Origin: Chryseobacterium sp. R2A-55
GTDB lineage: Bacteria > Bacteroidota > Bacteroidia > Flavobacteriales > Weeksellaceae
DNA length: 64,000 bases
Assembly (NCBI RefSeq): GCF_021401085.1
Contig: NZ_JACBFP010000011.1
Span: forward strand, 1-64,000
Direction of reading: 5' to 3'
This document shows, piece by piece, positions 18,741 to 55,274 of the stretch (positions are counted from its first letter, which is position 1; each line of letters begins with the position of its first letter). The notes under the pieces are model-generated. The model saw only the letters and a list, made by a program, of their open reading frames with translations, made no database searches and was not told where the DNA came from. Both the position numbers and the translations under genes were made by a program.

Positions 18741-18819
18741 TTAAGGTTCAATTTTGTTCAAACTGGTTCAAAAATGTTCAATCTTGGTGCAGGATGCAGG
18801 TTGCACGGTGCAAGTTTTG
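18741..18819. repeat. Periodic array upstream of eno: ten-base units turning into seven-base units
   Basis: From 18741 four ten-base units end in GTTCA (18741-18780, for example AACTGGTTCA). From 18785 the period changes to seven: TGGTGCA, GGATGCA, GGTTGCA, CGGTGCA, AGTTTTG. The eno start is 15 nt to the left, so this is the leader or promoter-proximal region. See the family description in the findings. Confidence 0.75.
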
Positions 18820-18953
18820 AACGCTGAAAAGGCGCTTGAGATTTTGCTGTACAAATTTAGTTAAAATTGAGCATTTATTAATGTTTGCGCAAATGATTTT
18901 GATAAGGTTTGCGTTAATTTTTGGTTAATTCCAAATATTAGGAAAGATATCAT

Positions 18954-18961
18954 TAAATTTG
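18954..18961 (+). promoter_or_regulatory. -7 box for the lipoprotein gene
   Basis: TAAATTTG fits TAnnTTTG, 21 nt before the start codon; no clear -33 TTG is seen at the usual distance. Confidence 0.4.
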
Positions 18962-18982
18962 AGAAAAGAAAAAATATAAAAA

Positions 18983-19420
18983 ATGAAAAAATTCACTATC
19001 GCAATCGCCGCATTTTCTTTGTTTGTGACGTTCAGCTGCAAGAAATCCAGTGATGGAAATAAAAGCGTCATCGTGAAAGAAAATGTTGAAGAAAAAATCA
19101 GTAATGAAAATGGAAAAACCGACAGTAGCTACACTGCCGAAAAAACTGTTGAAAACGGCAACGCCAAATCTCAGGAAATCACAGAACGCTACGTTGCAGA
19201 GGATGGAAGTTCTGCATTAGTCACTTTTAAAAACTCCGATACGGAGCACACCATCAGTATCCGAAGTAACAACAAGACGATTGTAGCGGAACAGAAAGCT
19301 TCCGATGGCAAAGCCCACATTTACCACAACCAGGATATCGAAATAAAATCCGAAAATGACAAAGTCACCATTACCCAGGGAAATAATGTGATCGAACTGA
19401 AGAAAGCGAGAGGACAATGA
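18983..19420 (+). CDS. Small lipoprotein
   Basis: The 145-residue product has a lipoprotein signal (MKKFTIAIAAFSLFVTFSC, modified cysteine at residue 19) followed by a lysine/asparagine-rich linker and a beta-rich domain ending in NDKVTITQGNNVIELKKARG. Several short repeats of alternating polar residues suggest a small beta-sandwich or adhesive fold. The family is not recognised. It is convergent with rplQ, separated by a terminator. Confidence 0.75.
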   Translation: MKKFTIAIAAFSLFVTFSCKKSSDGNKSVIVKENVEEKISNENGKTDSSYTAEKTVENGNAKSQEITERYVAEDGSSALVTFKNSDTEHTISIRSNNKTIVAEQKASDGKAHIYHNQDIEIKSENDKVTITQGNNVIELKKARGQ

Positions 19421-19569
19421 TAGAGTTGGGGACTTGGTGAGCATTGTTGCATTGCAAATCTCTTCGGGTAAATTTATCTGAGTGATTTTTTAAGATTCCT
19501 CCTTCATGGAAATGACAGAGGTTTAAATCTAAAACCAAACTTTATTCAGACTTCGGATTCTTAAAAACA

Positions 19570-19604
19570 AAAAAATCCACCCAGAAATTCTGAGTGGATT
19601 TTTA
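19570..19604 (-). terminator. Terminator at the end of the ribosomal operon
   Basis: AAATCCACCCAGA and TCTGAGTGGATTT form the stem, with T and A tracts on the two sides, so it stops the rplQ transcript and probably also the opposing lipoprotein transcript. Confidence 0.8.
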
Positions 19605-19622
19605 TTGGGAAAACCGAAGTTT

Positions 19623-20177
19623 TTACTCTTCAGTTTTTTCTTCTGTAGCATCTGTTGCTTCAGCAGCCGGAAGTTCTGCCGCAGGAGCTTCTGCAACTGG
19701 TTCCTCAGCTTTTGCTTCTTCCTTTGCAGGAATGGCAGCAACAGCTTCTTTTTTAGGAGCCGCAGATCTTCTGCTTCTTCTGGTTGCTTTTTTCTCTTCA
19801 GCATTCGGGTTGTAGAGTTCATTAAAATCTACAAGTTCGATCATTGCCATATCAGCAGCGTCTCCCGGTCTGAATCCGGTTTTGATGATTCTGGTGTACC
19901 CACCATTTCTTTCTGCAATTTTCGGAGCAACTGTTCTGAATAATTCAGTAACTGCTTCTTTGCTTTGCAGGTAAGAGAAAACCGTTCTTCTGTTGTGTGT
20001 TGTATCTTCTTTCGACTTTGTAAGGAGAGGTTCAACATACACTCTCAAAGCTTTTGCTTTGGCAACAGTAGTGTTGATTCTTTTATGCTCAATAAGAGAA
20101 CAAGCCATATTAGAAAGCATTGCCTTTCTGTGCGAAGCCGTTCTTCCTAAGTGATTGATTTTTTTACCGTGTCTCAT
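19623..20177 (-). CDS. rplQ: 50S ribosomal protein L17 with long A/E-rich tail
   Basis: The core (residues 1-125, [20 protein letters not shown]) is L17, which lines the large subunit near the exit tunnel. The last 55 residues are a low-complexity tail of Ala, Glu and Lys ([20 protein letters not shown]), longer than in most bacteria but seen as extensions in Bacteroidota. It is the last gene of the supercluster, 6 nt after rpoA, and is followed by a strong terminator. Confidence 0.95.
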
Positions 20178-20183
20178 TGTTTT

Positions 20184-21179
20184 TTATTTATCAGCGTCTA
20201 ATTTATATTTAGCAACGTCGAAACCGAAGTTCAGACCTTTTGCATGCACTAATTCTTCTAATTCTGTTAAAGATTTTTTACCGAAATTTCTGAATTTCAT
20301 CAAATCAGACTTGGTGTAAGAAACCAGCTCGCCCAGAGTTTCTACTTCGGCAGCTTTCAAACAGTTCAATGCTCTCACCGAAAGATCCATATCTGTCAAT
20401 TTAGATTTAAGCAGCTGTCTTGTGTGAAGGGTTTCTTCATCGTATTGGATGGATGCTTTCACTGCTTCGGTTTCCAAAGTAATTCTCTCATCAGAGAACA
20501 ACATGAAGTGATAGATTAATATCTTTGAAGCCTCCGTCAAAGCATTTTGAGGACTGATAGAACCATCAGTTTCAATATCCAAAACGAGTTTTTCGTAGTC
20601 TGTTTTTTGCTCTACACGATAGTTTTCAACGCTGTACTGAACTTTCTTGATCGGGGTGAAGATGGAGTCTATGGCAATGGTTCCGATTGGAGCGTTTGCA
20701 GACTTGTTTTGTTCGGATGGAACGTAACCTCTTCCTTTCTCAATTTGGAAAGACATTTCAAACTTCACGCTTTTGTTTGGAGTGCAGATCACCAAATCAG
20801 GGTTCAATACTTCGAATCCTTGAATTGATTTTCCTAAATCTCCCGCAGTCACGATTGTTTGACCGGAAATTTTAGCGGTAACCTGTTCCGCCGCTGCGTT
20901 TTCAGTTTTCGCTTTAAGTCTTAATTGTTTCAGGTTCAGAACGATTTCTGTTACGTCTTCAATTACTCCCGGAATGGTTGAAAATTCGTGCTCTACGCCT
21001 TCTATTTTAATAGATGAGATAGCATATCCTTCTAGAGAAGAAAGCAAAACTCTTCTCAAAGCATTACCGATGGTAAGTCCAAATCCTGGTTCCAATGGTC
21101 TGAATTCAAATTGTCCTTTGAAGTCATCGGAATTGAGAAGGATTACTTTATCGGGTTTAATAAATGTTAAAATTGCCAT
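20184..21179 (-). CDS. rpoA: RNA polymerase alpha subunit
   Basis: The start is placed at the ATG on 21179 ([14 protein letters not shown], the usual Bacteroidota N-terminus), giving 331 residues. The N-terminal domain for dimerisation and assembly contains [20 protein letters not shown]; the C-terminal domain with two helix-hairpin-helix motifs contains [20 protein letters not shown] and [13 protein letters not shown]. It nucleates assembly of beta and beta'. It lies between rpsD and rplQ as in the alpha operon of other bacteria. Confidence 0.97.
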
Positions 21180-21213
21180 ATAATTTGGGTTGAGCAAAAA
21201 TTTGAAAAAATTA

Positions 21214-21822
21214 TTATTTAGAGTAAAGTTCGACGATCAGTTGTTCTTTGATATCCTCCGGAATCTGAATTCTCTCCGGTGCAGATATGAAAGTACCTTC
21301 TTTCTTCTCATCGTTATATTGCAACCACTCATAATTAGACTTTGAAGCCAATGAATCGGCAATCACTTCAAGAGATTTTGATTTCTCTCTGATTGCCACC
21401 ACATCGCCTGCTTTCAATGAATAAGAAGGAATGTTTACCAATTCTCCGTTTACTGTTACGTGTCTGTGAGAAACCAATTGTCTAGCAGCAGCTCTGGTTT
21501 TTGCGAAACCGAATCTGTATACCACATTGTCTAATCTAGATTCACATAATTGTAAAAGAACTTCACCTGTAACGCCTTTTGCTCTTTGCGCTTTTTCGTA
21601 TAAGTTAGCAAATTGTCTTTCCAAAATACCGTAAGTGTATTTTGCCTTCTGCTTTTCAGTCAACTGAATTGCATACTCAGATTTTTTTGCTCCTCTTCTT
21701 TTATTCGGGCCGTGTTGTCCCGGTGGTTGGTTTTTTCTTTTTTCGAAGTCTTTGTCGTCTCCGAAGATTGCAGCACCAAATTTTCTTGCAATCTTAGTTT
21801 TTGGTCCAATATATCTTGCCAT
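21214..21822 (-). CDS. rpsD: 30S ribosomal protein S4
   Basis: The 202-residue protein nucleates 16S rRNA folding (5' domain). The N-terminal part ([20 protein letters not shown]) lacks the zinc-binding cysteines, as in the C-minus type. The S4 RNA-binding domain reads [20 protein letters not shown] followed by [12 protein letters not shown]. It is in its normal place between rpsK and rpoA. In many bacteria S4 represses its own operon; nothing seen here proves this. Confidence 0.97.
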
Positions 21823-21838
21823 AAAATTTTTGTTTAAA

Positions 21839-21901
21839 AGGTTTCAAGTTTCCGGTACAAAGTTCCTTGCAGAACATGGAACGCGAAACTCGGAACTAAG
21901 A
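21839..21901. repeat. Nine-unit seven-base array between rpsK and rpsD
   Basis: The whole spacer divides into heptamers: AGGTTTC, AAGTTTC, CGGTACA, AAGTTCC, TTGCAGA, ACATGGA, ACGCGAA, ACTCGGA, ACTAAGA. The first four are of GTTTC type and the last four are the reverse-complement type (GGAAC/GAAAC), so the spacer can fold on itself. Confidence 0.75.
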
Positions 21902-22291
21902 TTACACTCTTCTTCTTTTTGGTGGTCTGCATCCGTTGTGCGGCATAGGAGTCACATCAACGATTTCACTTACTTCAATTCCTGAATTGTGGATGGTTCT
22001 GATGGCAGATTCTCTACCTGCACCGGGACCTTTCACAAACACCTTTACTCTTCTGAGTCCTGCTTCATGAGCTACTTGAGAGCAATTTTCTGCAGCCATC
22101 TGAGCTGCGAATGGAGTATTCTTCTTCGACCCTCTGAATCCCATTTTACCGGCAGATGCCCAAGAGATTACTTCTCCGTTTTTATTTGTCAAAGAAATGA
22201 TAATATTGTTGAATGATGCCTGGATATGTGCTTCTCCGATCGCTTCAACTTTTACTTTTCTTTTTTTTACGACTTTAGTCTGTTTTGCCAT
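21902..22291 (-). CDS. rpsK: 30S ribosomal protein S11
   Basis: The 129-residue protein forms part of the platform near the mRNA exit and the Shine-Dalgarno cleft. The motifs [20 protein letters not shown] and [20 protein letters not shown] and the basic end [14 protein letters not shown] are typical. It follows rpsM by 15 nt. Confidence 0.97.
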
Positions 22292-22306
22292 AATTAATTC
22301 TAAAGA

Positions 22307-22684
22307 TTATTTACTTGCTTTTTTCTTGTTAGCAACAGTTTTTCTTCTTCCTTTTCGGGTTCTAGAATTGTTTTTAGTTCTTTGGCCTCTTAAAGGTAAT
22401 CCCAGTCTGTGACGTATTCCTCGTTGGCAACCGATGTCCATCAATCGTTTGATGTTCAACTGTACTTCAGAACGCAGCTCACCTTCTACTTTGATGTTGT
22501 CGGTGATGTAGTTTCTGATTAATGCCAATTCATCGTCATTCCATTCGTTGACTTTCTTGTCTTCGCTGATTCCAGCGTTCTTCAAAATTTGAGCAGCGGT
22601 ACTTCTTCCGATTCCGTAGATGTAAGTAAGCCCGATAACGCCCCTTTTGTTTTTTGGTAAATCAATACCTGAAATTCTCGCCAT
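22307..22684 (-). CDS. rpsM: 30S ribosomal protein S13
   Basis: The 125-residue head protein contacts the P-site tRNA and bridges the subunits. Present are [20 protein letters not shown], the helix-two-turns-helix motif [14 protein letters not shown] and the tail [20 protein letters not shown]. It lies 9 nt after rpmJ. Confidence 0.97.
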
Positions 22685-22693
22685 AATTTAATT

Positions 22694-22810
22694 TTAGCCT
22701 TGTCTTTGTTTAAATTTTGGGTTCTTTTTGTTGATTACAAAGAGTACGCCTTTTCTACGGACGATTTTGCAATCAGCACTTCTTTTTTTGATAGATGCTC
22801 TAACTTTCAT
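22694..22810 (-). CDS. rpmJ: 50S ribosomal protein L36
   Basis: A 38-residue product, [20 protein letters not shown] then [18 protein letters not shown], has the L36 pattern. Only one of the usual zinc-binding cysteines is kept (C14), with the later ligand positions changed to V/N-type residues, so this is the zinc-free (C-minus) form. It stands between infA and rpsM, the usual place. Confidence 0.95.
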
Positions 22811-22823
22811 TGTTTCTAATTTT

Positions 22824-22865
22824 CGCAATCGGCTTTTGGCTTTTGGCTTTCGGCGTTTCGCATTT
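22824..22865. repeat. Six-unit seven-base array between infA and rpmJ
   Basis: Heptamers CGCAATC, GGCTTTT, GGCTTTT, GGCTTTC, GGCGTTT, CGCATTT fill the middle of an 88-nt spacer, all in one direction. Confidence 0.75.
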
Positions 22866-22898
22866 TATGTTTAAAAGTATTCTTCTATTTCAATCAGA

Positions 22899-23114
22899 TT
22901 AATATCTGAAAGTAATTCTCCCTTTCGACAGGTCGTAAGGAGATAATTCCAATTTCACTTTGTCTCCGGGTAATAGCTTGATGTAGTGCATCCTCATCTT
23001 GCCAGAAATATGCGCGATGAGCACGTGTCCATTTTCAAGTTCAACACGAAACATGGCGTTTGAAAGTGCCTCCACGATCACGCCATCTTGTTCGATATGT
23101 TTTTGTTTTGCCAT
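22899..23114 (-). CDS. infA: Translation initiation factor IF-1
   Basis: The 71-residue OB-fold protein ([20 protein letters not shown], then [20 protein letters not shown] and [11 protein letters not shown]) binds the A site of the 30S subunit during initiation. It follows secY by 11 nt, as in other Bacteroidota. Confidence 0.97.
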
Positions 23115-23125
23115 TAACCTTTAAA

Positions 23126-24505
23126 TTATGAATTGCTTGTTCTGGATAATTTGGACTGCATTAACCCATCATAGTGATGGTTCAACAAATACGTGTTGAT
23201 TTGCTGAACGGTATCTAGGGTTACACCGACCATAATTAAAAGGGACGTACCACCGAAGAACAGGGCAAATCCATCAGTCTGAACAAGCCAACCGTGTATA
23301 AACGCCGGAAGGACTGCAAAGATAGCTAATAAAATTGAACCGGGAAAGGTAATTTTAGATAAAATATCATCCAGATAATCAGATGTTTCTTTACCAGGTC
23401 TTACTTTCGGGATCAATCCGCCGTTTCTCTTCAGGTCATCCGCCATTTGGTTTACTGGAATGGTGATCGCAGTGTAGAAGAAGGTGAAAATCACAATCAG
23501 TATGGCAAACAATACATTGTATTGCCAGCTGAACACGTCCTTGAAACCTGCAAGGAAAGTGTTGGACTCATCCACTTTGGTCAATAATCCCGGAACGAAC
23601 ATCAATGCCTGTGCAAAGATGATTGGCATTACTCCGGCAGCATTCACCTTTAATGGGATCCACTGTCTTGCTCCCTGCATCAAGTTTCTGTTTACTCCTC
23701 CTCTCGCCTGTGCTCTGCTTACATATTGAATCGGTATTTTCCTTACGGCCACAGAAAGTAGAATTCCAAGCAATACCACCAACATCCAGAATAATACTTC
23801 GATCAGAATCATGATTGTTCCCAATCCGCCTTTTCCAGTCTGTGTTGCAAGTTCCTGAAGAAAAGAAGATGGAAGGTTTGCCAAGATTCCCACCATGATG
23901 AGGATGGAGATACCGTTTCCAATTCCCTTGTCTGTTATTTTTTCTCCCAACCACATTGCAAATACAGATCCTGCCACAAGAATTACGATACTCGGAAGCC
24001 AAAACATAATTGACTGCGGATCAACATAATATGCCGATGCAAACTGTGCATGTGGCAAGAACATCTGAGTAATTGAGGTAAGGTAAGATGGTGCCTGTAC
24101 CAAACAAACTGCAATAGTTAACCATCTTGTGATCTGATTAAGGGTATTTCGGCCGCTTTCCCCATCCTTTTGTAATTTCTGAAGGTAAGGAATTGCCATA
24201 CCCATCAGCTGCACGATGATGGATGCAGAAATATAGGGCATAATTCCGAGTGCCATGATTGACGCTCTGGAAAACGCTCCCCCTGTAAAGGACGAAAGCA
24301 GCCCGAGAAGTCCTGCTCCCTGTTTGTTACCACCCTGATTTTTGTATTGCTCCAATAAACTTCCCACCTCCGTCATATTGATCGCAGGTAGGGAAATATA
24401 AGATGCGAATCTATACACAAGGATAATTCCGAGCGTAAAAAGAATTTTTTCTCTGAGTTCCTTAAGAGTCCAAATGTTTTTCAGTGTTTGTATAAATTCT
24501 TTCAT
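23126..24505 (-). CDS. secY: Protein translocase subunit SecY
   Basis: The 459-residue inner-membrane channel protein has ten hydrophobic segments. The first helix follows LKELREKILFTLGIILVYRF, and the plug region near GLLGLLSSFTGGAFSRASIM and the cytosolic loop RKIPIQYVSRAQARGG are recognised. It forms the SecYEG pore for export and membrane insertion, which the many signal-peptide proteins here need. It is embedded in the ribosomal operon between rplO and infA. Confidence 0.97.
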   Translation of the reverse strand: MKEFIQTLKNIWTLKELREKILFTLGIILVYRFASYISLPAINMTEVGSLLEQYKNQGGNKQGAGLLGLLSSFTGGAFSRASIMALGIMPYISASIIVQLMGMAIPYLQKLQKDGESGRNTLNQITRWLTIAVCLVQAPSYLTSITQMFLPHAQFASAYYVDPQSIMFWLPSIVILVAGSVFAMWLGEKITDKGIGNGISILIMVGILANLPSSFLQELATQTGKGGLGTIMILIEVLFWMLVVLLGILLSVAVRKIPIQYVSRAQARGGVNRNLMQGARQWIPLKVNAAGVMPIIFAQALMFVPGLLTKVDESNTFLAGFKDVFSWQYNVLFAILIVIFTFFYTAITIPVNQMADDLKRNGGLIPKVRPGKETSDYLDDILSKITFPGSILLAIFAVLPAFIHGWLVQTDGFALFFGGTSLLIMVGVTLDTVQQINTYLLNHHYDGLMQSKLSRTSNS

Positions 24506-24514
24506 GGGTGAAAA

Positions 24515-24961
24515 TTAAAGGGTAATTGCTTTTCCTCCTGCCTTAGAAATGGCTTCTTCAGCGGATTTTGTGAATTTGTCTGCAGAGATCGAAACGCCTG
24601 TTTTCAATTCACCTCTACCCATGATTTTCACGATTTCAGATTTTTTTGCCAAACCATTTTCCACCAAGACATCTTTTGTGATCTCGGTGATGTTTTTAGC
24701 ATCTGCCAAAAGTTGAATGGTATCTAGGTTAATTCCTCTGTACTCCTTTCTGTTTACATTATTGAAACCGAATTTAGGCAATCTTCTTTGCAAAGGCATC
24801 TGTCCACCTTCAAAACCAATTTTTTGAGAGTATCCGGCTCTGGATTTCTGACCTTTGTGCCCTTTTGTAGAAGTTCCTCCGTATCCGCTTCCCTGTCCTC
24901 TACCAATTCTTTTTTGGCTGTGAGTGGAACCTGATGCCGGTTTTAAATTATTTAAATTCAT
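24515..24961 (-). CDS. rplO: 50S ribosomal protein L15
   Basis: The 148-residue protein has the glycine-rich basic start of L15 (SQKRIGRGQGSGYGGTSTKG) that threads into 23S rRNA, and a globular end (FTKSAEEAISKAGGKAITL). It precedes secY by 9 nt. Confidence 0.97.
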   Translation of the reverse strand: MNLNNLKPASGSTHSQKRIGRGQGSGYGGTSTKGHKGQKSRAGYSQKIGFEGGQMPLQRRLPKFGFNNVNRKEYRGINLDTIQLLADAKNITEITKDVLVENGLAKKSEIVKIMGRGELKTGVSISADKFTKSAEEAISKAGGKAITL

Positions 24962-24983
24962 TTTGTTTAGATTTGATATTTAA

Positions 24984-25032
24984 AGATTAGAGAAAGGAGA
25001 CTTTAATTTCTTTCAGTCTCCGCTCTGGTGTC
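24984..25032. repeat. Seven-base array between rpmD and rplO
   Basis: Heptamers AGATTAG, AGAAAGG, AGACTTT then AATTTCT, TTCAGTC, TCCGCTC, TGGTGTC: an AGA-type half followed by its TCT/TC-type reverse complement. GGAGACT and AGTCTCC within it form a perfect 7-bp stem. Confidence 0.65.
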
Positions 25033-25039
25033 CATTTTC

Positions 25040-25216
25040 TTACTTTTGAACTTCAACTAAGTGGCTTACTGCCGCTACCATTCCCAAGATTGCAGGAGTC
25101 GCCTCATGCTCTACAACTTGGTGAAGTTTTTTCAATCCTAATGCTTCAAGCGTTCTTTTTTGGGTTTTAGTTCTACCAATAGCGCTTCTTACTTGTTTTA
25201 CCTGAATTTTTGCCAT
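25040..25216 (-). CDS. rpmD: 50S ribosomal protein L30
   Basis: A 58-residue frame, MAKIQVKQVRSAIGRTKTQK then RTLEALGLKKLHQVVEHEAT, ends in LVEVQK. The pattern IxVxxxxSxIGxxxxQxxTLxxLGL is the L30 signature. It lies 10 nt after rpsE, in the normal spc-operon place. Confidence 0.96.
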   Translation of the reverse strand: MAKIQVKQVRSAIGRTKTQKRTLEALGLKKLHQVVEHEATPAILGMVAAVSHLVEVQK

Positions 25217-27135: not shown

Positions 27136-27220
27136 AGAACCAAGATCAAGGAACAAAGAAACAAGACTTAGTATTTGTAATTTATTCTTTTATCTTTTAT
27201 CTTAAGTCAACTTGACTGTC
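27136..27220. repeat. Seven-base array between rpsN and rpsH
   Basis: The spacer of 147 nt holds AGAACCA, AGATCAA, GGAACAA, AGAAACA, AGACTTA (27136-27170) and, after about 15 nt, TCTTTTA, TCTTTTA, TCTTAAG, TCAACTT, GACTGTC (27186-27220). The second set is the TCT-type complement of the first AGA-type set. Confidence 0.75.
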
Positions 27221-29679: not shown

Positions 29680-29689
29680 TTCTTTAAAT

Positions 29690-29745
29690 TTTAGACCTGT
29701 CTGCCGACAGGCAGGTTTTAGATTCTAGACTTTAAAATTTTCTAT
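29690..29745. repeat. Weaker seven-base array with a palindrome between rpsC and rplP
   Basis: Blocks TTTAGAC, CTGTCTG, CCGACAG, GCAGGTT, TTAGATT, CTAGACT, TTAAAAT, TTTCTAT. The centre, CCTGTCTG CCGA CAGGCAGG, is a near-perfect palindrome of a type recalled as scattered in flavobacterial genomes. The period is less clear than in the other arrays. Confidence 0.5.
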
Positions 29746-29792
29746 TTTAAAAAAGTAACGGTAATTTAAAATTTAAAAACTCATCTAAAATT

Positions 29793-32073: not shown

Positions 32074-32127
32074 GCTATTTGCTTTTGGCTACTGGCGGCT
32101 GGCTTTTAGCTATTCGCCATCTGCTAT
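32074..32127. repeat. Eight-unit seven-base array between rplW and rplB
   Basis: GCTATTT, GCTTTTG, GCTACTG, GCGGCTG, GCTTTTA, GCTATTC, GCCATCT, GCTATTT: eight units in perfect phase, each starting with GC, the last ending in the rplW stop codon. All run in one direction. Confidence 0.85.
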
Positions 32128-33761: not shown

Positions 33762-33791
33762 CAAATGTATGAAGATTTTTTGAATTGACAA
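33762..33791 (-). promoter_or_regulatory. Promoter of the rplC operon
   Basis: On the minus strand TTG (33791-33789), a 19-base spacer and TACATTTG (33769-33762) match the Bacteroidota -33/-7 consensus exactly. Transcription would begin near 33755, giving a leader of about 90 nt. It explains how rplC to rplQ are expressed although separated from rpsJ. Confidence 0.8.
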
Positions 33792-33871
33792 TGAGAGAGA
33801 TAAAAATATTTATAAAATTTAATCGCGGAGCTTTCACTAATTTTTGTATATTTTCTGCAAATATTTTAATC

Positions 33872-34294
33872 ATGAAGAAATTATTTCTGTTATCCATTTT
33901 TAGCCTGTTTTTAACTGGATGTTCGCCACAGATCAAAACCCTTGCAAACGGAAAACAAATAGACACCAGATTGGCCGGAGTTTGGACCGGTTCCGAAAAA
34001 GACCAGCAAATAGACGGCGTCTCCAAGTCTTGGGAAATGAAAAGAATGGATGACGGAACCTACACCATCAATTTCAAATTCACGCAAGATGAAATCACAG
34101 ATACCACCCACGAAGAAGGTAAATGGTGGACCGAAAATGGAAAATATTACGAATTCCATGACTATGACGGGAAAACAGATGTCTACAGCTATACTGTTCT
34201 GGATTCAAAGCGGGTAAAGTTTAAGAGCGAACAAATCACAGTTGGCATGGAAAACAACGGTTATGAATTCATAGACACGAAAACCGGAAACTAA
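33872..34294 (+). CDS. Lipoprotein inserted between rpsJ and rplC
   Basis: The start is set at the ATG on 33872, where MKKLFLLSIFSLFLTGC gives a perfect lipoprotein signal (modified Cys17); a longer frame starts 29 codons upstream, inside the rplC promoter. The 140-residue product is a beta-rich, lipocalin-like domain (RLAGVWTGSEKDQQIDG, GTYTINFKFTQDE, EGKWWTENGKYYEFHDYDG). The pattern 'G.W......DG.Y......' is common in small flavobacterial lipoproteins of unknown role. It runs opposite to the ribosomal genes on both sides. Confidence 0.8.
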   Translation: MKKLFLLSIFSLFLTGCSPQIKTLANGKQIDTRLAGVWTGSEKDQQIDGVSKSWEMKRMDDGTYTINFKFTQDEITDTTHEEGKWWTENGKYYEFHDYDGKTDVYSYTVLDSKRVKFKSEQITVGMENNGYEFIDTKTGN

Positions 34295-34297
34295 AAA

Positions 34298-34531
34298 ATG
34301 GAAACCGCAACAAAAAATGACGGATCCTCCTATGAAAACGCCATCAAAATAAGCAGCGTGCCGGAAGAATATCAATACGTGAAAGCAAACTGTAGCGACT
34401 GCAAATTAAATAGCCAGTCACTCAGTGAGAACAAAGGCCGATTTTTTGACGTGATCACAGTTACAAAGCCGGATGGTTCTACCAAAAGCTTTTACTTCGA
34501 TATTACTTCTTTTTATGGTAAAGGATTTTAG
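34298..34531 (+). CDS. Small hypothetical protein following the lipoprotein
   Basis: This 77-residue protein begins METATKNDGSSYENAIKISS, contains a CSDCKLNSQS segment with two cysteines three apart, and ends with TKSFYFDITSFYGKGF. It has no signal peptide. It starts 3 nt after the lipoprotein stop, so the pair is one transcript. The family is not known to me. Confidence 0.7.
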   Translation: METATKNDGSSYENAIKISSVPEEYQYVKANCSDCKLNSQSLSENKGRFFDVITVTKPDGSTKSFYFDITSFYGKGF

Positions 34532-34630
34532 ATTTTAAGACGGAGTGCGGAAAATAAAACGAGTACTCATTACCAAAAATTGCTAAAATCATGATTTGGA
34601 GCAAATGCACTATCGACTATTTTTAACACA

Positions 34631-34660
34631 AAAATCCGCCCTCTTTAGAGAACGGATTCA
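34631..34660 (-). terminator. Terminator after rpsJ
   Basis: On the minus strand AATCCG and CGGATT, with CTCT/AGAG inside, form a stem followed by GGATTTTTGTG. It stops the rpsL-fusA-rpsJ transcript before it can run through the inserted plus-strand genes, and may also serve those genes in reverse. Confidence 0.75.
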
Positions 34661-34680
34661 TTATAAGTATTTCGCAGTTA

Positions 34681-34715
34681 GTCTTCCGTCTCCGGACTTC
34701 GGACTTCCCGCTCCA
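34681..34715. repeat. Five-unit seven-base array after rpsJ
   Basis: GTCTTCC, GTCTCCG, GACTTCG, GACTTCC, CGCTCCA: five units ending 3 nt before the rpsJ stop, between the gene and its terminator. All run in one direction. Confidence 0.75.
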
Positions 34716-34718
34716 TCA

Positions 34719-48945: not shown

Positions 48946-49605
48946 TTAGAAGAAGTAAGCTATATTCCAGGCAAAACCTACATTAAACTTGCCCGAACTT
49001 TTGCCAAATCCTGGGACAATCATAGGTTGGATATCTTCCTGTTTTGTGGAAAACAATAGGTATCTGGGTTGAATGTTGACCTCTATATAAAAAGGACTCT
49101 CAAAAAGCTGAACTCTTCCCCCCACGGCGCCCTCCAACCAAAAAGAGCTCTGAGAACTTGCGGGATATGCTACCGATGTCTCACTTCCGCCATATCCACG
49201 AACAGGAACCGCTTTGTATTCCTGACTGTAGAATGAACCGGACAATTTGCCACCGAGATAGAAACCGTTCATCGGATTCTCTCGGTCACTTGCGAGCATA
49301 TAGAAAGCCCCCAATTTCAGAAAAGGTCCGTTTACAGTGGCATCATATCCGTTTTTCTGGTACACGTTTCTTTCAAAACCCGCATCCACCACCGCATGAA
49401 TGTTTTTGGTCAATCGTGAGGAAACAAATCCCTGATAAAGCATCCGGTCCGAAAATAAACCAGTTGCGGCATTCAGCACATCAATTCCCACCAGGAAATT
49501 TGGTTGATATTTCCATTTAAATTTCGTGGAATCCTGCTGTGTCTGCGCAAGACTCAAAACGAAAAGAACACTAAAAAAGAAGGAAAAGATGCGTTTTGTT
49601 TTCAT
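48946..49605 (-). CDS. Envelope protein, DUF6048-like
   Basis: The start at the ATG on 49605 (MKTKRIFSFFFSVLFVLSLA) gives a signal peptide; 219 residues. The mature part is rich in beta strands with aromatic ends (FYLGGKLSGSFYSQEYKAVP, FYIEVNIQPRYLLFSTKQED) and closes with FNVGFAWNIAYFF, the pattern of an outer-membrane beta barrel. The pairing with the next gene and rlmD is a recalled conserved neighbourhood in Flavobacteriales. It overlaps the upstream gene by 35 nt. Confidence 0.75.
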   Translation of the reverse strand: MKTKRIFSFFFSVLFVLSLAQTQQDSTKFKWKYQPNFLVGIDVLNAATGLFSDRMLYQGFVSSRLTKNIHAVVDAGFERNVYQKNGYDATVNGPFLKLGAFYMLASDRENPMNGFYLGGKLSGSFYSQEYKAVPVRGYGGSETSVAYPASSQSSFWLEGAVGGRVQLFESPFYIEVNIQPRYLLFSTKQEDIQPMIVPGFGKSSGKFNVGFAWNIAYFF

Positions 49606-50047
49606 CTGTAATTTGGGTTTGATTTTGCTCCAGATCAATCACGGCATCTGCAACTTCCAACTGAGAAGTCACATTTTCGTACATCTTCTTAATTCCGCAA
49701 GCAGGTGAAACATATTGAGCAGCAGTGGTGTAATTGACTTTGATTTTTGAGTTAATTTCTGCTTTTTTCAAGCCCACCAAGATCTCGGTAAATGGACCAT
49801 CATCCACTCGCAAAGGGATAAACACCGAATCCACCTTACTTTTTGCAATAACAGGAATCAAACCGTTTCCATAGTTCACCTGCACATATAATGAATCCAA
49901 GGTTTTCAGTTTTCCGGTCGATTTGGTCTTGAATTTCAGTTTCATTCTCGGAGTAGCTTCCCCCCCGACGCAAATATCGTCATCACTTCCGCAGGAAAAA
50001 AGTGAAAGCAGAAAAACCGATGACAAAAATATTTTCAGAAATCTCAT
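49571..50047 (-). CDS. Lipoprotein, DUF6452-like
   Basis: The 158-residue protein has a lipoprotein signal (MRFLKIFLSSVFLLSLFSC) and a compact beta domain (PRMKLKFKTKSTGKLKTLDS) with three further cysteines. It probably acts with the barrel-like protein of the next gene, whose start it overlaps. The function of the pair is unknown. Confidence 0.75.
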   Translation of the reverse strand: MRFLKIFLSSVFLLSLFSCGSDDDICVGGEATPRMKLKFKTKSTGKLKTLDSLYVQVNYGNGLIPVIAKSKVDSVFIPLRVDDGPFTEILVGLKKAEINSKIKVNYTTAAQYVSPACGIKKMYENVTSQLEVADAVIDLEQNQTQITDENKTHLFLLF

Positions 50048-50081
50048 GATTCAATTGTATTTAATTGACTTTGCTTATAAA

Positions 50082-51497
50082 CTAATTCGCGATTTTCACC
50101 AGAAGTGCAATATTCTCCACATGATGAGTTTGCGGAAACATATCCACCGGCAGAATTTTCACCAGCCGATAGTGGTCTTTCATCAAAGCCAAATCTCTGG
50201 CCTGAGTTGCCGAGTTGCAGCTCACATACACGATTTTCTCAGGTGAAAGCTTCAGAATTTGCTCCACCACTTTCTGGTGCATCCCGTCTCTTGGCGGATC
50301 GGTAATCAAAACGTCTGCTTTGGGATGGCTGGCTAAAAATTCGTCATTAAAGATATCTTTCATGTCGCCACAATAAAATGTGCAGTTGGAAAGCCCATTT
50401 AATTCCGCATGTTCTTTTGCCGCGTCAATTGCTTCCTGAACGGATTCAATCCCGATGACCTGTTTCGCATTTCTGGCCACATATTGCGCAATGGTTCCGG
50501 TTCCCGTGTATAAATCGTAAACTACTTCATCACCTTTTAAATCAGCAAATTCCAGGGTTTTCCGATAAAGGTTTAGTGCCTGCTGATAATTGGTTTGGAA
50601 AAATGATTTGGGGCCGATTTTAAATTTCAATCCATCCATTTCTTCCCTCAAAAATCCTTCCCCGAAATAGGTCTGAACATTCTGATCATAAATGGAATCG
50701 TTGGGTTTCGAGTTAATGGCAAAAACCAAAGTCTTAATTTGCGGGAACTCCTTCAAAAGAAAATCAAACAATTTTTCACGTTGCTCTTTTTCTTCACGGA
50801 AGAGCTGAAACAAAACCATCCATTCTCCTTTTGAATTCTGGCGCATCATCAAAGTCCTCAAGAAACCTTCCTGGTTTTTCACATCAAAAAATTCCAGACC
50901 GTTTTCCACCGCATAATTTTTTACAGCAAGACGGATCGCGTTCGAAGGCTCTTCCTGCAGCCAACATTCCTTTAAGTCCAAAATCTTGCTCCACATTCCG
51001 GGAATATGGAAACCCAGCGCATTTTTATCACCAAAATCTTCACCCGAGCTCACTTCATCAAAAGTAAGCCAACGAGCATTGGAAAAGGAAAACTCCATTT
51101 TGTTGCGGTAAAAATATTGTTCCTCACTTCCCATAATCGGCAAAGTCTCGAAATCCTCAATCCCGCCGATTCTTTTGATATGGTTATAAACTTCTTCCTG
51201 TTTGAATTCAAGTTGCTTTTCATAGGAAAGATTCTGCCATTTGCAGCCGCCGCAAACTCCGAAATGGATGCATTTCGGCTCTGCTCGGTACGGAGATTTT
51301 TCCAAGATTTCCAGCGCTTCGCCTTCCACATATTTTGATTTGGATTTCTTCACCCGCACATTTACCACATCACCGGGAACCGCACCTGAAACCAAAACAG
51401 TTTTCCCTTCTTCCGTTTTTCCCACTGCAACTCCTTTCGCTCCTGCGGAAATCAGTTTGATGTTTTCCAACACCATATTTTTTTGCTTCTTTCTCAT
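50082..51497 (-). CDS. rlmD: 23S rRNA (uracil-1939-C5)-methyltransferase
   Basis: The start is the ATG on 51497 (MRKKQKNMVLENIKL); 471 residues. An N-terminal TRAM domain (AVGKTEEGKTVLVSGAVPGD) precedes an iron-sulfur site (CIHFGVCGGCKWQ). The methyltransferase part carries VVYDLYTGTGTIAQYVARNA and the catalytic nucleophile in IVYVSCNSATQARDLALM. The product forms m5U1939 in 23S rRNA. It stands upstream of the DUF6452/DUF6048 pair. Confidence 0.93.
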   Translation of the reverse strand: MRKKQKNMVLENIKLISAGAKGVAVGKTEEGKTVLVSGAVPGDVVNVRVKKSKSKYVEGEALEILEKSPYRAEPKCIHFGVCGGCKWQNLSYEKQLEFKQEEVYNHIKRIGGIEDFETLPIMGSEEQYFYRNKMEFSFSNARWLTFDEVSSGEDFGDKNALGFHIPGMWSKILDLKECWLQEEPSNAIRLAVKNYAVENGLEFFDVKNQEGFLRTLMMRQNSKGEWMVLFQLFREEKEQREKLFDFLLKEFPQIKTLVFAINSKPNDSIYDQNVQTYFGEGFLREEMDGLKFKIGPKSFFQTNYQQALNLYRKTLEFADLKGDEVVYDLYTGTGTIAQYVARNAKQVIGIESVQEAIDAAKEHAELNGLSNCTFYCGDMKDIFNDEFLASHPKADVLITDPPRDGMHQKVVEQILKLSPEKIVYVSCNSATQARDLALMKDHYRLVKILPVDMFPQTHHVENIALLVKIAN

Positions 51498-51534
51498 TGA
51501 AAAATTTAGTGGCACAAAATTAAGGTTTTAAAAC

Positions 51535-51558
51535 AAAAAAAGGGGAATCATCCCCATT
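51535..51558 (-). terminator. Terminator after the two small membrane protein genes
   Basis: GGGGATGATTCCCC followed by TTTTTTTG on the minus strand, lying between the small membrane protein genes and rlmD. Confidence 0.7.
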
Positions 51559-51624
51559 TTCTAATGCATCAATTTTTGAGAACCTCATTAAAAAACCTCA
51601 AAAATCCGGATTATTAAATGAAAT

Positions 51625-51933
51625 TCATTTTCCCGCCAAATTCCGTTCCCGATTCATCAGGTAGAAAACTCCGGCGACACAACCGGTCAATAAAAAACCT
51701 ATAGTCCACAAATATTTGGCGGAAAGATTATTTTTAAAAACATCCACAATCAAAACCACCGCAGAGATGAAATTGCAGATCAAAACTAAAAAAGGGAGGA
51801 TTTTACCCACTTCCAATGGAATGCCAAAATTTGTCAGGTCAATTGTTACGGTAAAAATCCCAAAAATCAAACCAAGTAAAGCGATTGCATAAATGATGTT
51901 TTTGGAGACGAGGAGATTTGAAGACTTATTCAA
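51625..51933 (-). CDS. Small three-helix membrane protein
   Basis: The 102-residue protein has three hydrophobic segments (IIYAIALLGLIFGIFTVTID, ILPFLVLICNFISAVVLIVD, LWTIGFLLTGCVAGVFYLMN) and ends with a basic NRERNLAGK. The last segment resembles the small N-terminal domain of phospholipase-D-type proteins ('W......G.....YL..R'). It is a paralogue of the next gene and overlaps it by 4 nt (ATGA). Confidence 0.75.
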   Translation of the reverse strand: MNKSSNLLVSKNIIYAIALLGLIFGIFTVTIDLTNFGIPLEVGKILPFLVLICNFISAVVLIVDVFKNNLSAKYLWTIGFLLTGCVAGVFYLMNRERNLAGK

Positions 51934-52229
51934 TTTGTTTTTTCTTTTCTTCTAATGAGATACAAAATAGTGGTGATGCTTCCGAACAAAATCATTCCCA
52001 CTATCCAAAATACTGAATATTTATTTCGGTTTCTGAAAATATCTGTAATCACGATGACCCACGAAATTGCAGAAAAAACAATTCCCAAGTCGATGACAAT
52101 ATTCCCGGTGAGATCGCCAAAGTTCCAATGAACGAGCATCATGTAAGCGCCAAACAAAACAACGACTAACCCAAAAACCGCCATTGGCAGCAAATATCTT
52201 TTTGGAATCAAGAGCGGATGTTCCATCAC
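51930..52229 (-). CDS. Small three-helix membrane protein, paralogue
   Basis: The 99-residue protein has the same plan: helices LPMAVFGLVVVLFGAYMMLV and LGIVFSAISWVIVITDIFRN, then VFWIVGMILFGSITTILYLI and a basic end. It shares the W/G/YLxxR layout of its neighbour, so the two arose by tandem duplication. The role is unknown; both should lie in the inner membrane. Confidence 0.75.
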   Translation of the reverse strand: MMEHPLLIPKRYLLPMAVFGLVVVLFGAYMMLVHWNFGDLTGNIVIDLGIVFSAISWVIVITDIFRNRNKYSVFWIVGMILFGSITTILYLIRRKEKTN

Positions 52230-52252
52230 ATTTAAATTTAAGTAAATATATA

Positions 52253-52285
52253 AAAATTCCCGATAGACAAAGCCATCGGGAATTT
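52253..52285 (-). terminator. Terminator of the thioredoxin-fold lipoprotein gene
   Basis: ATTCCCGAT and ATCGGGAAT form the stem, followed by TTTTTATA on the minus strand, 22 nt after the stop codon. Confidence 0.75.
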
Positions 52286-52306
52286 GAATATCTACTTTCT
52301 GAATTT

Positions 52307-53830
52307 TTATTTTGCGGTAGGAGCCGGTTGTTTTTGCAAATCCTGAGCACTTGGCGCCAACAAGTCGTTTTGCAGATGTGCTTCCGGTGCAACTGTAGGA
52401 GCTTTCAACCCGGTCATTTTATCCAAAACACTTACTATTTCTGGATCTGCCAAATTGTAAAAGAAACGGCTTGCAATCTTTCCGTCCTTATCCAAAACGA
52501 TAAATGAAGGCATTTTGAAACCATAAATTCCAAAATCTTTGGCAATCTTAGAATTCAGTCCACCATCAGCATAAAGGTTGGTTCCTGGAATCCCTTTCAA
52601 CATGGCGTTGCTGGTTTTCACGAACTGTTCTTGGGTATCATCTAAATTCACATAGGTGAAATTCATTTTTGATTTGTAGAAATTCACCACTTCCTTTAGT
52701 ACCGGAATCGCTGCTTCAGAGATGTATGGATTCCATGAAGCGTAAAACATCACCATGGTTGGTTTTCCTTTTCCGTCAAAAAGTTTGTCCGTATTACCGT
52801 CTGCTTTCACCAATTTCCCGCTGGAAGCTGCTTCGCCAATTTTTGGACCATTGATCACAAACTGGATTCTCTGCAAATCTTTTTTCACTTCAGAGTCCTT
52901 GATATTTTTTTCAATCAGTTTATTGATGGATTCGGCTCTTTCAGGAGATTCATTGGGAGAGACATCCTGGCTGGAAATCACGAATGCGAGCAAATAATCT
53001 TTGGTCAGCTGCGACAAATCTTTTTTCGTTTCCAAATACTTCGCAAAAATCTCTGAAGAAGTTGATTTCCCGTCCTTGTTTTGGGAAGCGGCAAATTCTT
53101 GAAATCCGTTCGTCAGTTTCCCCAAAAGGTAATTTCGGAAAATAGGCTGATTTCTCAGCAGTCTATCGTGGTCTGTGGTCAGCTTTTTCTCCAGATCAAG
53201 GAAATTTTTGGTTACCTTGAAGCTTGGATTCCCGGTCGCCATTCCGTGATTGTTTTCATACTGTGCCATCACACTTAGGATGCTTGCATTAAGTTCGTCT
53301 TTTTTCCACTGGATTGCATCGCTGTCCGGAGAAGTTTTCTTGGCAGCAGATTCTATATTATTTCCGATATCTGTTTTGATTTTTTCCACACCCTTCAAGA
53401 ATCCCGCTTCATCTTTGGCAATGAGTTCCTGCATATTGATTTTCGGTGCATATTCCTGGATGAATTTCACGGTTTCAGCAATGAATTCATTATTTTTTTG
53501 TGCGTCTCCAGTCACAGTGAACTGCTGCGGAAAATTTGCTGCCTGACCAGAAATATTGAATTTTTGCCCACCTTTCAAATAAACCATCGCCTGCTTTCCG
53601 GCATAGGATATGAGGTACATCCCATTTTTCGGAGCATCAAAACTGCCGCTGAAGCTGCCTTTTGGATCAACGCCCATATTAATCAAAGGCAAAGTTCCTA
53701 CTCCTGAAGCTTCAATAATCTCCACTCTTTCCAATGGCGAACCGCCGGCAAAATTTCCGGTCACCTCTACTTTTTTTGAACATGAAACTGCCATCACGGC
53801 GAAAAGAAATACTAAAAAATAAGTTTTCAT
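52307..53830 (-). CDS. Thioredoxin-fold (TlpA/AhpC-like) lipoprotein without redox cysteines
   Basis: The 507-residue lipoprotein (lipobox AVSC, C17) has an N-terminal beta domain of the DUF4369 type (VEVTGNFAGGSPLERVEIIE), a helical middle part and a C-terminal thioredoxin fold (GKPTMVMFYASWNPYISEAA, then MPSFIVLDKDGKIASRFF with the conserved cis-proline). Where redox-active relatives have WCxxC, this protein has W366-N-P-Y-I370, and C17 is its only cysteine. It cannot do thiol chemistry, so a binding or chaperone role is more likely. The gene carries a TATTTTTG box (53851-53858). Confidence 0.8.
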   Translation of the reverse strand: MKTYFLVFLFAVMAVSCSKKVEVTGNFAGGSPLERVEIIEASGVGTLPLINMGVDPKGSFSGSFDAPKNGMYLISYAGKQAMVYLKGGQKFNISGQAANFPQQFTVTGDAQKNNEFIAETVKFIQEYAPKINMQELIAKDEAGFLKGVEKIKTDIGNNIESAAKKTSPDSDAIQWKKDELNASILSVMAQYENNHGMATGNPSFKVTKNFLDLEKKLTTDHDRLLRNQPIFRNYLLGKLTNGFQEFAASQNKDGKSTSSEIFAKYLETKKDLSQLTKDYLLAFVISSQDVSPNESPERAESINKLIEKNIKDSEVKKDLQRIQFVINGPKIGEAASSGKLVKADGNTDKLFDGKGKPTMVMFYASWNPYISEAAIPVLKEVVNFYKSKMNFTYVNLDDTQEQFVKTSNAMLKGIPGTNLYADGGLNSKIAKDFGIYGFKMPSFIVLDKDGKIASRFFYNLADPEIVSVLDKMTGLKAPTVAPEAHLQNDLLAPSAQDLQKQPAPTAK

Positions 53831-54044
53831 TATTAAAAATTAAATTCCTGCAAAAATAATTTATTCTTTGCGAACACACGAAAAAATAAGCACTTTATCA
53901 TTATTTTAACATGATTTTCTTTTGGTGCATGCGTCGCAATTGCAGCATCGGATAAAAATATTGAAGAGGTTGCAAAATAAGTGACGGGATTTTATGAAAT
54001 TCAAACTTCGCATTCCGTATGCGCCTGTCGGTGGACAAGCCTTG
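53831..54044. other. Non-coding spacer
   Basis: Between the thioredoxin-fold gene and the thermonuclease gene nothing coding is convincing. A 79-codon frame over part of it has an unlikely composition and overlaps the thermonuclease end. Confidence 0.5.
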
Positions 54045-54545
54045 CTATGGTTTTCGAAAACTCCACGGTGAAATGGAATTCGGATCGCTCCACAAACCGA
54101 GTTTTTTGCTTTTGGCCAACTCCTCCAATCTTGCGTATTCGGCATCAGAAGAGTATTTCTTAAAATGCCACGCTAATCCGGATTTCAGCATTTCCTTGTT
54201 CACGTTGGTTCCGTCTTCCAGGAAAATTTCTGCAATTATTCTTCCCCTGGAATCAAAATTCCCGTTCTTTCCTCTGCTGATGATGGTTACCATTTTTCCG
54301 AAACATAAATCAGACAGTTTCTCTTTGGATTTTGTTCCAAACGGTTGCCTTTTTTCCGGCGCATCGATATGTTCCAAGCGAATGTTCATCGGGAATTGGT
54401 AATATAGTCCTTCCACGGTGTCGCCATCTTTTACGCCGATGATTTTTAGTTTTAAGGTAACATTGTTTTGTTGCGAAGTCTGAAAAGTTCCTGGAATGAA
54501 TGTATTACTCAGGAAAATGAATAGTAGGAAAAGTATTTTCTGCAT
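54045..54545 (-). CDS. Thermonuclease (SNase) family protein
   Basis: The 166-residue secreted protein has a signal peptide (MQKILFLLFIFLSNTFIPG) and the OB-fold nuclease core: GVKDGDTVEGLYYQFPMNIR with the metal-binding aspartate, then LEHIDAPEKRQPFGTKSKEK with the arginine and aspartate positions, and FDSRGRIIAEIFLEDGTNV with the second arginine. It is expected to cut DNA or RNA outside the cell or in the periplasm. Length is normal; the C-terminal Cys-rich extension of some relatives is missing. Confidence 0.85.
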   Translation of the reverse strand: MQKILFLLFIFLSNTFIPGTFQTSQQNNVTLKLKIIGVKDGDTVEGLYYQFPMNIRLEHIDAPEKRQPFGTKSKEKLSDLCFGKMVTIISRGKNGNFDSRGRIIAEIFLEDGTNVNKEMLKSGLAWHFKKYSSDAEYARLEELAKSKKLGLWSDPNSISPWSFRKP

Positions 54546-54884
54546 GGTTTGTTTTCTTGGAAGAGCAAGCTACGGAAATTATGTGAATTTTTGGTCAGGG
54601 GGAATTTTCTTTTATAAACGAAAATTTACCTTATTTAACGAGTCTTTCAATTACAAACGATTATTTTGTCAAAATTTAGAATTTTTCATCTAAAAACGAA
54701 AAAATTTATCTTTTGTTGAAAAATCCATCTAGACTAGGAAAAACCTTTCAGCGTTTTGAAAACATCCAGACTTTAGCAAAAGTTCAAAAACGCTGAAAGG
54801 GTATCGACAAAAAAATCCCAACTTCGCAGTCGGGATTTTTATTTTAAAAACTTGGCCAAAGCTTGAAACTTTGGTGAAGTTTTA
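54546..54884. other. Spacer with a long hairpin and a terminator
   Basis: No gene is seen. CCTTTCAGCGTTTTGAA (54744-54760) pairs with TTCAAAAACGCTGAAAGG (54783-54800) around a 22-nt loop, with one extra A. To its right stands the terminator of the DUF3467 gene. Confidence 0.7.
54810..54845 (-). terminator. Terminator of the DUF3467 gene (end of the rpo operon)
   Basis: On the minus strand AAATCCCGACTGCGAAGT and GGGATTTTTTT form a stem-loop with a T run, 40-75 nt after the stop codon. Confidence 0.75.
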
Positions 54885-55190
54885 TTACGCCTGAACGTTG
54901 TTCTGTCCTAAAACAAATGGCTCAACTTCTTTGATTTCGCCGAATTGTTGCTCGTAGTTTGCGATGTTCTGCTGCAAAGCTGCTAGAACTCTTTTTGCGT
55001 GAAGCGGAGCCAAGATTACTCTTGATCTCACTTTCGCCTGCTGAACTCCCGGCATCAATTGGATGAAATCTACTACAAATTCTGATGGGGAATGGTTGAC
55101 CAAAGCAAGGTTCGCATAAACTCCTGCTGCTACCATTTCGTTCAATTCAATGTTGATGTTGTTTGGATCTTGGTTTTGATTGTTGTCCAT
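54885..55190 (-). CDS. DUF3467 protein
   Basis: The 101-residue protein (NINIELNEMVAAGVYANLAL, then FVVDFIQLMPGVQQAKVRSR and APLHAKRVLAALQQNIANYE) matches DUF3467 in length and motifs. It has no signal peptide or membrane part. Its place directly behind rpoC is usual in Bacteroidota, which suggests a role near transcription or simple co-transcription; the function is unknown. It is 92 nt from rpoC across a heptameric repeat array. Confidence 0.9.
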   Translation of the reverse strand: MDNNQNQDPNNINIELNEMVAAGVYANLALVNHSPSEFVVDFIQLMPGVQQAKVRSRVILAPLHAKRVLAALQQNIANYEQQFGEIKEVEPFVLGQNNVQA

Positions 55191-55203
55191 TTTTAATTTT
55201 TTT

Positions 55204-55274
55204 GTTTAAAGTTTAAAGTTTAAGGTTTCAGGTTTGCAAATTTAACTTTAAACTTCAAACCTGAAACTTCAAAC
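55204..55274. repeat. Ten-unit seven-base array after rpoC
   Basis: GTTTAAA, GTTTAAA, GTTTAAG, GTTTCAG, GTTTGCA, AATTTAA, CTTTAAA, CTTCAAA, CCTGAAA, CTTCAAA. The first five are GTTTxxx units, the last four their reverse complement type, so a long imperfect hairpin can form. Confidence 0.85.

Follow-up and report, generated by a model that had tools for sequence, protein, structure and literature searches.

A ribosomal-protein operon whose long intergenic spacers carry degenerate arrays with a seven-base period lies in the first 64,000 nt of contig 2 (hereafter the window) of Chryseobacterium sp. R2A-55, a Kaistella-type member of the Weeksellaceae with a 2.93 Mb genome in 35 contigs. Of the 80 named-genome loci returned for SecY, a set from which the window's own genome was possibly excluded, the best is Chryseobacterium (Kaistella) koreense CCUG 49689, whose SecY shares 99% identity with the one encoded in the window. 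NCBIfam names were obtained for 14 proteins flanking the arrays (S4, S11, IF-1, L15, L30, S8, S14, L16, S3, L23, L2, S10, RpoC, and enolase). Between rplW and rplQ, the operon has long spacers of 78, 113, 147, 78, and 79 nt, together with a 214-nt infA-rpsM gap that contains the gene taken as rpmJ and in which 87 nt precede that gene. All remaining spacers are 34 nt or shorter, as stated in an earlier interpretation made from the letters alone (the sequence-only reading). Two plus-strand reading frames between rplC and rpsJ (33791-34531) run opposite to the ribosomal operon.

Heptad arrays of the window and their period

The sequence-only reading had singled out nine stretches as heptamer-periodic (Table 1). 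Each array was compared with 500 dinucleotide-preserving shuffles, and all nine display an excess of self-matches at lag 7, with z from 2.8 to 6.0 and p ≤ 0.010 throughout, values that are post hoc in that the stretches were picked by the earlier reading and their ends widened in the present analysis. Placement in operon spacers, also claimed, does not extend to two of the nine: by gene calls, the eno array occupies the eno side of a divergent spacer (18727-18982), and the rpsJ-end array falls in a convergent one. Ten-base units directly adjoin the eno heptads, a second period within one leader.

Table 1. Positions, strands, and units of the heptad arrays and of repeats adjoining or interrupting them (TRF, Tandem Repeats Finder)
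Feature	Position	Strand	Units	Remarks
Heptad array in eno leader	18785-18819	-	GCACCnT type on eno strand	lag-7 z 3.5 over 18741-18830; TRF period 7 at 18786-18812
About four ten-base units	18746-18786	-	TTGAACnnnn on eno strand	TRF period 10; lag-10 z 2.9
Two-armed rpsK/rpsD array	21839-21901	-	GTTYC then GAAAC on mRNA	lag-7 z 4.0; RNA fold z -2.3
One-armed infA/rpmJ array	22824-22865	-	GCCAAAA type on mRNA	lag-7 z 4.6; TRF period 7; fold z 0.06
Two-armed rpmD/rplO array	24984-25032	-	around GGAGACT/AGTCTCC stem	lag-7 z 2.8
Two-armed rpsN/rpsH array	27136-27220	-	AAGAnnn then TCTTnnn on mRNA	lag-7 z 3.8; fold z -0.11
rpsC/rplP array	29690-29745	-	TCTAnAA type	palindrome-interrupted in this genome; lag-7 z 3.4 over 29681-29790
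Palindromic insert core within rpsC/rplP array	29697-29710	-	CTGTCGGCAGACAG	insert about 20 nt; absent at the K. koreense site (alignment)
rplW/rplB array	32074-32127	-	AATAGCn/AAAAGCC type on mRNA	lag-7 z 6.0
rpsJ-end array	34681-34715	+	GGACTTC	lag-7 z 4.6; TRF period 7; convergent spacer 34532-34718
Two-armed array after rpoC	55204-55274	-	GTTTnnn, loop, nnnAAAC on mRNA	lag-7 z 5.9

The period was also examined in spacers that had not been chosen beforehand. In an 864-kb sample of the genome (the window plus 40 contiguous 20-kb stretches from two contigs), spacers of 30-400 nt were scored by their best 28-nt window at cutoffs of ≥60% or 70% lag-7 matches. At the lower cutoff, 47 of 503 spacers qualified versus 12.3 in shuffles, and at the higher one 16 versus 0.4; lags 5, 6, 8, 9, 10, and 11 gave 9 to 20 and 0 to 3 spacers, respectively. 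Among co-directional spacers, a period-7 window was found in 21/356 (1.2 when shuffled; other periods 0 to 3) and, in K. koreense, in 22/329 (0.6 when shuffled; other periods at most 4). The excess over shuffled spacers, proposed as a check by the sequence-only reading, is therefore present. Summed over all spacers, the signal is highest at lag 14 (z 7.4), with lag 7 at z 4.4; lags 12, 10, and 11 are also raised (z 5.2, 3.3, and 3.0), with customary helical and compositional signals contributing in part.

Arrays prefer gaps between genes that point the same way. The lag-7 z is 5.8 for co-directional (n = 356), 2.2 for convergent (n = 70), and 0.2 for divergent spacers (n = 77). When three samples were pooled, those from K. 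koreense and other species having been partly picked where arrays were already seen, arrays occurred in 70/787 co-directional versus 4/165 divergent (p 0.003) and 4/150 convergent spacers (p 0.008); the window genome by itself gives 25/356 co-directional versus 2/77 divergent (p 0.20). The assertion that arrays fill the long operon spacers is borne out in the ribosomal-protein operon, where five of six long spacers contain a 60% window and the sixth, rpsK/rpsD, the weakest array by this measure, reaches 57% (range of best 28-nt matches, 0.57 to 0.82). It does not carry over to the genome, in which 38/314 co-directional spacers of 50-400 nt have such a window (37/276 in K. koreense). Stop codons in all frames, considered as a purpose of the seven-base step, were dropped as an explanation, since several arrays contain no stop on the mRNA strand.

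Arms, strand polarity, and start regions

Many arrays, read on the mRNA strand, combine one arm behind the stop codon with another, of complementary units, whose end falls just short of the next start codon; the infA/rpmJ array is among those with a single arm. The rpmD/rplO spacer of a relative (locus L062), for instance, comprises about 12 TTAGAnn and 13 TCTAAnn units in 218 nt. The complementarity exceeds what spacers of this kind share at large: the mean arm score within 64 array spacers was 9.16 versus 7.55 (sd 0.28) when halves were swapped between spacers, with corresponding values of 7.44 versus 7.17 (sd 0.11) in 150 array-free spacers. Some unit positions are often kept inside one array (GTTTnnn, TCTAAnn), and the unit differs between arrays. 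The claim that only the phase is preserved consequently describes the comparison between arrays and overstates the freedom within them. In two relatives (L224 and L226), the second heptad arm seemingly runs into the start of the following reading frame.

Arrays on the start side of a spacer are polar. On the mRNA strand, C exceeds G in 16/17 of them in the window genome, in 16/20 in K. koreense (the exceptions being three with G above C and one tie), and in 5/7 in other species; the window genome and K. koreense have orthologous arrays in common, and their samples are not independent. Counted in bases, the G:C ratio in the window genome is 53:166 in start-side arrays, compared with 2740:3326 in array-free spacers over their start-side half (odds ratio 0.39, p 4e-10, computed on bases, which are not independent). 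Leaders with an array within the last 40 nt also have a more open start region, with a mean unpaired probability over positions -30 to -1 of 0.73 (se 0.025, n = 34) versus 0.59 (se 0.011) in 150 sampled array-free spacers, and a fold energy of -2.3 versus -4.3 kcal/mol.

The same sites in relatives

Operon sites were compared in 78 to 81 loci each, rows containing N having been dropped. At rpsK/rpsD, 60/81 loci have a short spacer (<45 nt) of about 20 nt that is free of any array; of the 21 long ones, 18 display a strong lag-7 window (lag 6: 4; lag 8: 6). The units at this one site change with the species, being GTTYC/GAAAC in the window genome and K. koreense, TTGAATC in L044, L054, and L056, and ATCTAAA in others. 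The rpmD/rplO spacer is short in 53/81 loci and long in 28, with lag 7 in 13 (lag 6: 2; lag 8: 4), and rplW/rplB is short in 66/78 and long in 12, with lag 7 in 4 (lags 6 and 8: 0). The motif AATAGTA just before the ATG is common to the short and long forms of rplW/rplB, so that the array lies downstream of the stop codon and upstream of a leader end that both forms retain; the spacer measures 78 nt in the window genome versus 56 nt in K. koreense.

Other sites are long in every locus compared. The rpsC/rplP spacer (78-113 nt in relatives, 79 loci) has a strong lag-7 window in all 79 (lag 6: 0; lag 8: 1) and retains AAATTACCGTTACTTTTTTAAAA in the relatives read; rpsN/rpsH (111-164 nt, 79 loci) has one in 19 (lag 6: 2; lag 8: 0); and infA/rpsM, long in 81/81, has one in 3 (lags 6 and 8: 0). 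The rpsC/rplP and rpsN/rpsH spacers possibly contain a conserved leader for L16 or S8, respectively.

Between sister species, arrays persist in place while their sequence diverges. Of 137 spacers orthologous between the window genome and K. koreense, 19 carry an array in at least one species, and 13 of these 19 pass a looser cut in both, as do 2/118 of the non-array spacers. Median identity is 0.70 for array spacers (n = 19) and 0.80 for the others (n = 117). Across the phylum, the four-unit pattern AAMYNNN gave 20 or more period-7 matches, and no less than threefold the period-8 count, in 45/198 genomes; the mirror condition, period 8 over period 7, held in 0/198. One pattern catches only some units, so heptads of this kind occur in at least these 45 genomes; the search was confined to the phylum. 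The period-8 count serves as the period control, reversed-pattern controls retaining period seven and hence providing no test of it. Eight-base units (AACYnnnn) do form arrays of like style in genomes G217, G099, G201, and G056. As a general alternative, period 8 was discarded: in 200-kb samples of G217 and G201, with only 52 and 49 co-directional spacers, lag 8 showed no general excess.

The palindrome that interrupts the rpsC/rplP array was traced separately. It occurs at 30 distinct places in the window genome, 33 in K. koreense, and none in 16 other genomes searched, and its sites exist in filled and empty forms between the two species. Tandem copies are spaced 27 or 34 nt, that is, 20 plus 7 or 14. 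Heptads flank it at 8/8 sites read in K. koreense and 8/26 in the window genome, where another repeat is the host at 12/26. Its candidacy as a heptad-specific element was weakened by 20 further copies in the window genome, of which 4 have heptad flanks and 12 another repeat. An Rfam search of the window returned no match at the arrays, the sole match being a Flavo-1 RNA at 15917-16004 (51.7 bits).

Known heptamers, explanations, and meaning

The short tandemly repeated repetitive (STRR) heptamers of filamentous cyanobacteria are likewise tandem heptamers in intergenic DNA, and differ from the arrays here in their conserved unit. GGGNATC and GGGGA(C/T)T heptads in Xanthomonas and Nostoc are located between aligned genes and rarely between divergent ones; their coding strand is the G-rich one behind stops and the C-rich one ahead of starts, and inverted pairs occur. 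In a related species they occupy the same gene context at a different length. The fixed unit, with a preference for four copies, is able to form G-quadruplexes (Rehm et al. 2015, PMC4692102, where Calothrix heptanucleotides are also mentioned). The present arrays resemble these heptads in period, in co-directional placement (70/787 versus 4/165 divergent, in the partly chosen samples), in inverted pairs, and in a C-rich coding strand before starts (16/17, 16/20, and 5/7). After stops, where the coding strand of the Rehm heptads is G-rich, G exceeds C here in 6/11, 7/13, and 7/11 arrays. Unlike that fixed G-rich unit, the units here vary (GTTTnnn, TCTAAnn, GCYAAAA, AAGAnnn, and others) and are mostly A/T-rich with few or no G runs, which rules out G-quadruplexes as the shared reason for this placement. 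By eye, the listed arrays contain no repeated run of three G.

A second fixed-unit family, the TAACTGA heptads of Beggiatoaceae, lies just before starts, including starts inside ribosomal-protein operons, and is also found in some Cyanobacteria and five Bacteroidetes, one Elizabethkingia genome among them (MacGregor 2015, PMC4679880). In Cyanothece, indels in these arrays are mostly 7 nt and other heptamers are intermixed; binding of S1, Csp, or Csr proteins has been proposed (PMC4679880). Period, position just upstream of starts, and occurrence within ribosomal-protein operons are common to both systems, whereas TAACTGA is one fixed unit in mostly direct orientation (one inverted case) and the present arrays have many units and two arms. 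TAACTGA is not among the units of the listed arrays, a statement that concerns those arrays, no genome-wide TAACTGA search having been run. More generally, in many bacteria no repeat unit of 5-11 nt is commoner than the heptamer (Mrazek 2007, cited in PMC4679880), and seven-nucleotide polymerase slippage has been proposed for abundant ones (Mrazek 2007, cited in PMC4679880 and PMC4692102). The long simple sequence repeats of that study have a unit length of seven, as here, and are near-perfect, whereas for most arrays here even the best 28-nt window reaches no more than 57-82% lag-7 matches. The contrast drawn by the sequence-only reading, a fixed unit in cyanobacteria and a fixed phase here, agrees with Rehm 2015 and MacGregor 2015, subject to the portion of the unit that is often kept within arrays. 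A literature search, with most subscription journals outside its coverage, turned up no description of heptad arrays that lack a fixed unit. What is new relative to known heptamers is the free unit combined with a persisting period and start-side polarity, for which G-quadruplexes cannot be the reason.

The arrays may represent a degenerate relative of the fixed-unit heptads, generated by local copying errors and then shaped by selection for an open start that lacks a Shine-Dalgarno sequence, a proposal to which we give close to an even chance. Arrays would arise and be reshaped through copying errors with a seven-base step, both by direct copying and by opposite-strand copying that would yield the complementary arm, and would survive where they are harmless, namely in transcribed gaps between co-directional genes. 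Bacteroidetes lack Shine-Dalgarno sequences and need unstructured leaders, according to two studies (Accetto and Avgustin 2011, PMC3155529; Baez 2019, PMC6847099). Translation would accordingly filter the start-side arrays: C-rich, G-poor units would be kept near the start because initiation without Shine-Dalgarno pairing needs an open, weakly folded leader, and their complements would land toward the stop codon of the preceding gene. We infer the copying process, the cause of its seven-base interval, and the selection on leaders; the copying half, which we favor, is based on period, turnover, and literature, and the filter half, likewise favored, on polarity and openness.

Several observations weigh against this proposal. 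The unit indels predicted by the copying half, which the sequence-only reading had proposed to look for in close strains, do not emerge between the sister species: among the 137 orthologous spacers, gaps of at least 4 nt that are multiples of seven number 2/18 in array spacers versus 7/56 elsewhere, so that whole-unit slippage is not supported, although the array alignments behind these counts are poor and unreliable. The seven-base copying step that this reading had suggested is partly supported, in that arrays stay in place while diverging; gains or losses of whole units did not stand out. Stop-side arrays have no clear skew, as the counts above indicate. Measured against shuffles of the same letters, the difference in openness disappears (z 0.2 and 0.0), and the greater openness of array leaders is therefore attributable to base composition. 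In 13/66 arrays, mismatches are more unequal across unit columns than a random spread would give (z > 2; mean z 0.84), in a set that includes ten loci picked for TCTAA arrays; such position-bound variation is not expected from plain decay, and the spread of a variant by unit copying could produce it. To these points is added the partial selection of the samples from K. koreense and other species.

The main rival assigns the period to a protein platform, in which an S1, cold-shock, or RRM-type protein would contact fixed bases every seven nt before starts, with period and core selected and the other positions free. We consider this unlikely. In its favor, some arrays keep a constant core beside free positions (TCTAAnn, GTTTnnn), arrays are located near starts and in ribosomal-protein operons, and the likewise placed TAACTGA heptads have been suggested as binding sites for S1, Csp, or Csr proteins (PMC4679880). 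However, the core varies within one genome and, at one site, between species, which is hard to accommodate with a single protein; arrays also follow stop codons and enter convergent spacers; and the rpsK/rpsD site is array-free in 60/81 relatives.

RNA structure offers another explanation: the arms would form a stem in the mRNA through which the operon transcript is protected, processed, or attenuated, heptads being what results when both arms are kept complementary. Beyond the arm excess (9.16 vs 7.55), folding predicts that a hairpin exists at some array sites. The rpoC-end array forms the longest of the nine (inverted-arm score 20; -25.8 kcal/mol, z -6.5), and the GGAGACT/AGTCTCC stem of rpmD/rplO, kept in 13 Kaistella-type sequences, is paired in 93.8% of cells versus 43 to 64% when slid. 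Yet the other five of the six arrays folded are weak (z -2.3, -2.5, -0.1 for rpsN/rpsH, 0.1 for infA/rpmJ, and -2.3), and only 1/10 rpmD/rplO pairs changed on both sides in the 13 sequences. Arm mismatches show no preference for G-U, with 22 G-U versus 42 A-C in array spacers and 115 versus 120 in array-free ones; a second arm scan gave 17 versus 21 and 103 versus 66 (difference p 0.07). The A-C excess arises because arrays are poor in G, as base composition alone predicts. No terminator-like site (a G+C-rich stem followed by a T run) was found on the mRNA (minus) strand within the operon arrays, and the one plus-strand site (29699-29716) lies inside the rpsC/rplP palindrome. Mismatch types, folding, and covariation give no sign of RNA-specific selection, and a hairpin as the main cause is thus improbable; the structural role raised by the sequence-only reading applies to some arrays, such as that at the rpoC end, and not to others.

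We regard as equally improbable that neutral slippage is the whole account, the heptads being mutational debris whose orientation and openness follow leader composition. Fast turnover and absence from the same site in many relatives are in keeping with it, as is the abundance of heptamers in many bacteria (Mrazek 2007, cited in PMC4679880), but the start-side C-over-G bias is far stronger than in array-free leaders by the base-wise test given above, and arrays persist in place between sister species. Insertion of REP/RAYT-type mobile elements, with heptads as their traces, was prompted by heptads beside a Y1 transposase gene in L217, L224, and L226 and by the complementary heptad arms that flank such genes in the latter two, and is very improbable given that the repeats flanking Y1 genes in 20 loci are mostly other palindromes, that the genes look to have landed in older heptad spacers, and that 4/16 genomes searched, array-bearing relatives among them, have no Y1 match.

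Fixed-unit heptads have so far been explained case by case, through G-quadruplexes or a TAACTGA-binding protein. Finding this period and start-side polarity in arrays that have no fixed unit points to a cause shared by the period rather than the sequence. More speculatively, and with little confidence, the arrays could belong to an element class in Bacteroidota that is defined by its seven-base step and strand polarity instead of its sequence, and that perhaps also lies behind the heptads of Xanthomonas, Nostoc, and Beggiatoaceae. A polymerase or RNA-binding protein acting in seven-nucleotide steps would then write or read the gaps, units exchanging freely while period and polarity persist. 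Identical operon sites in more than 80 Weeksellaceae species, with or without arrays and with different units, constitute a natural experiment, and as the array-flanked genes are essential and their expression measurable, the question of why the step is seven is directly testable. In these bacteria, the arrays may help to leave the next gene's start accessible to ribosomes.

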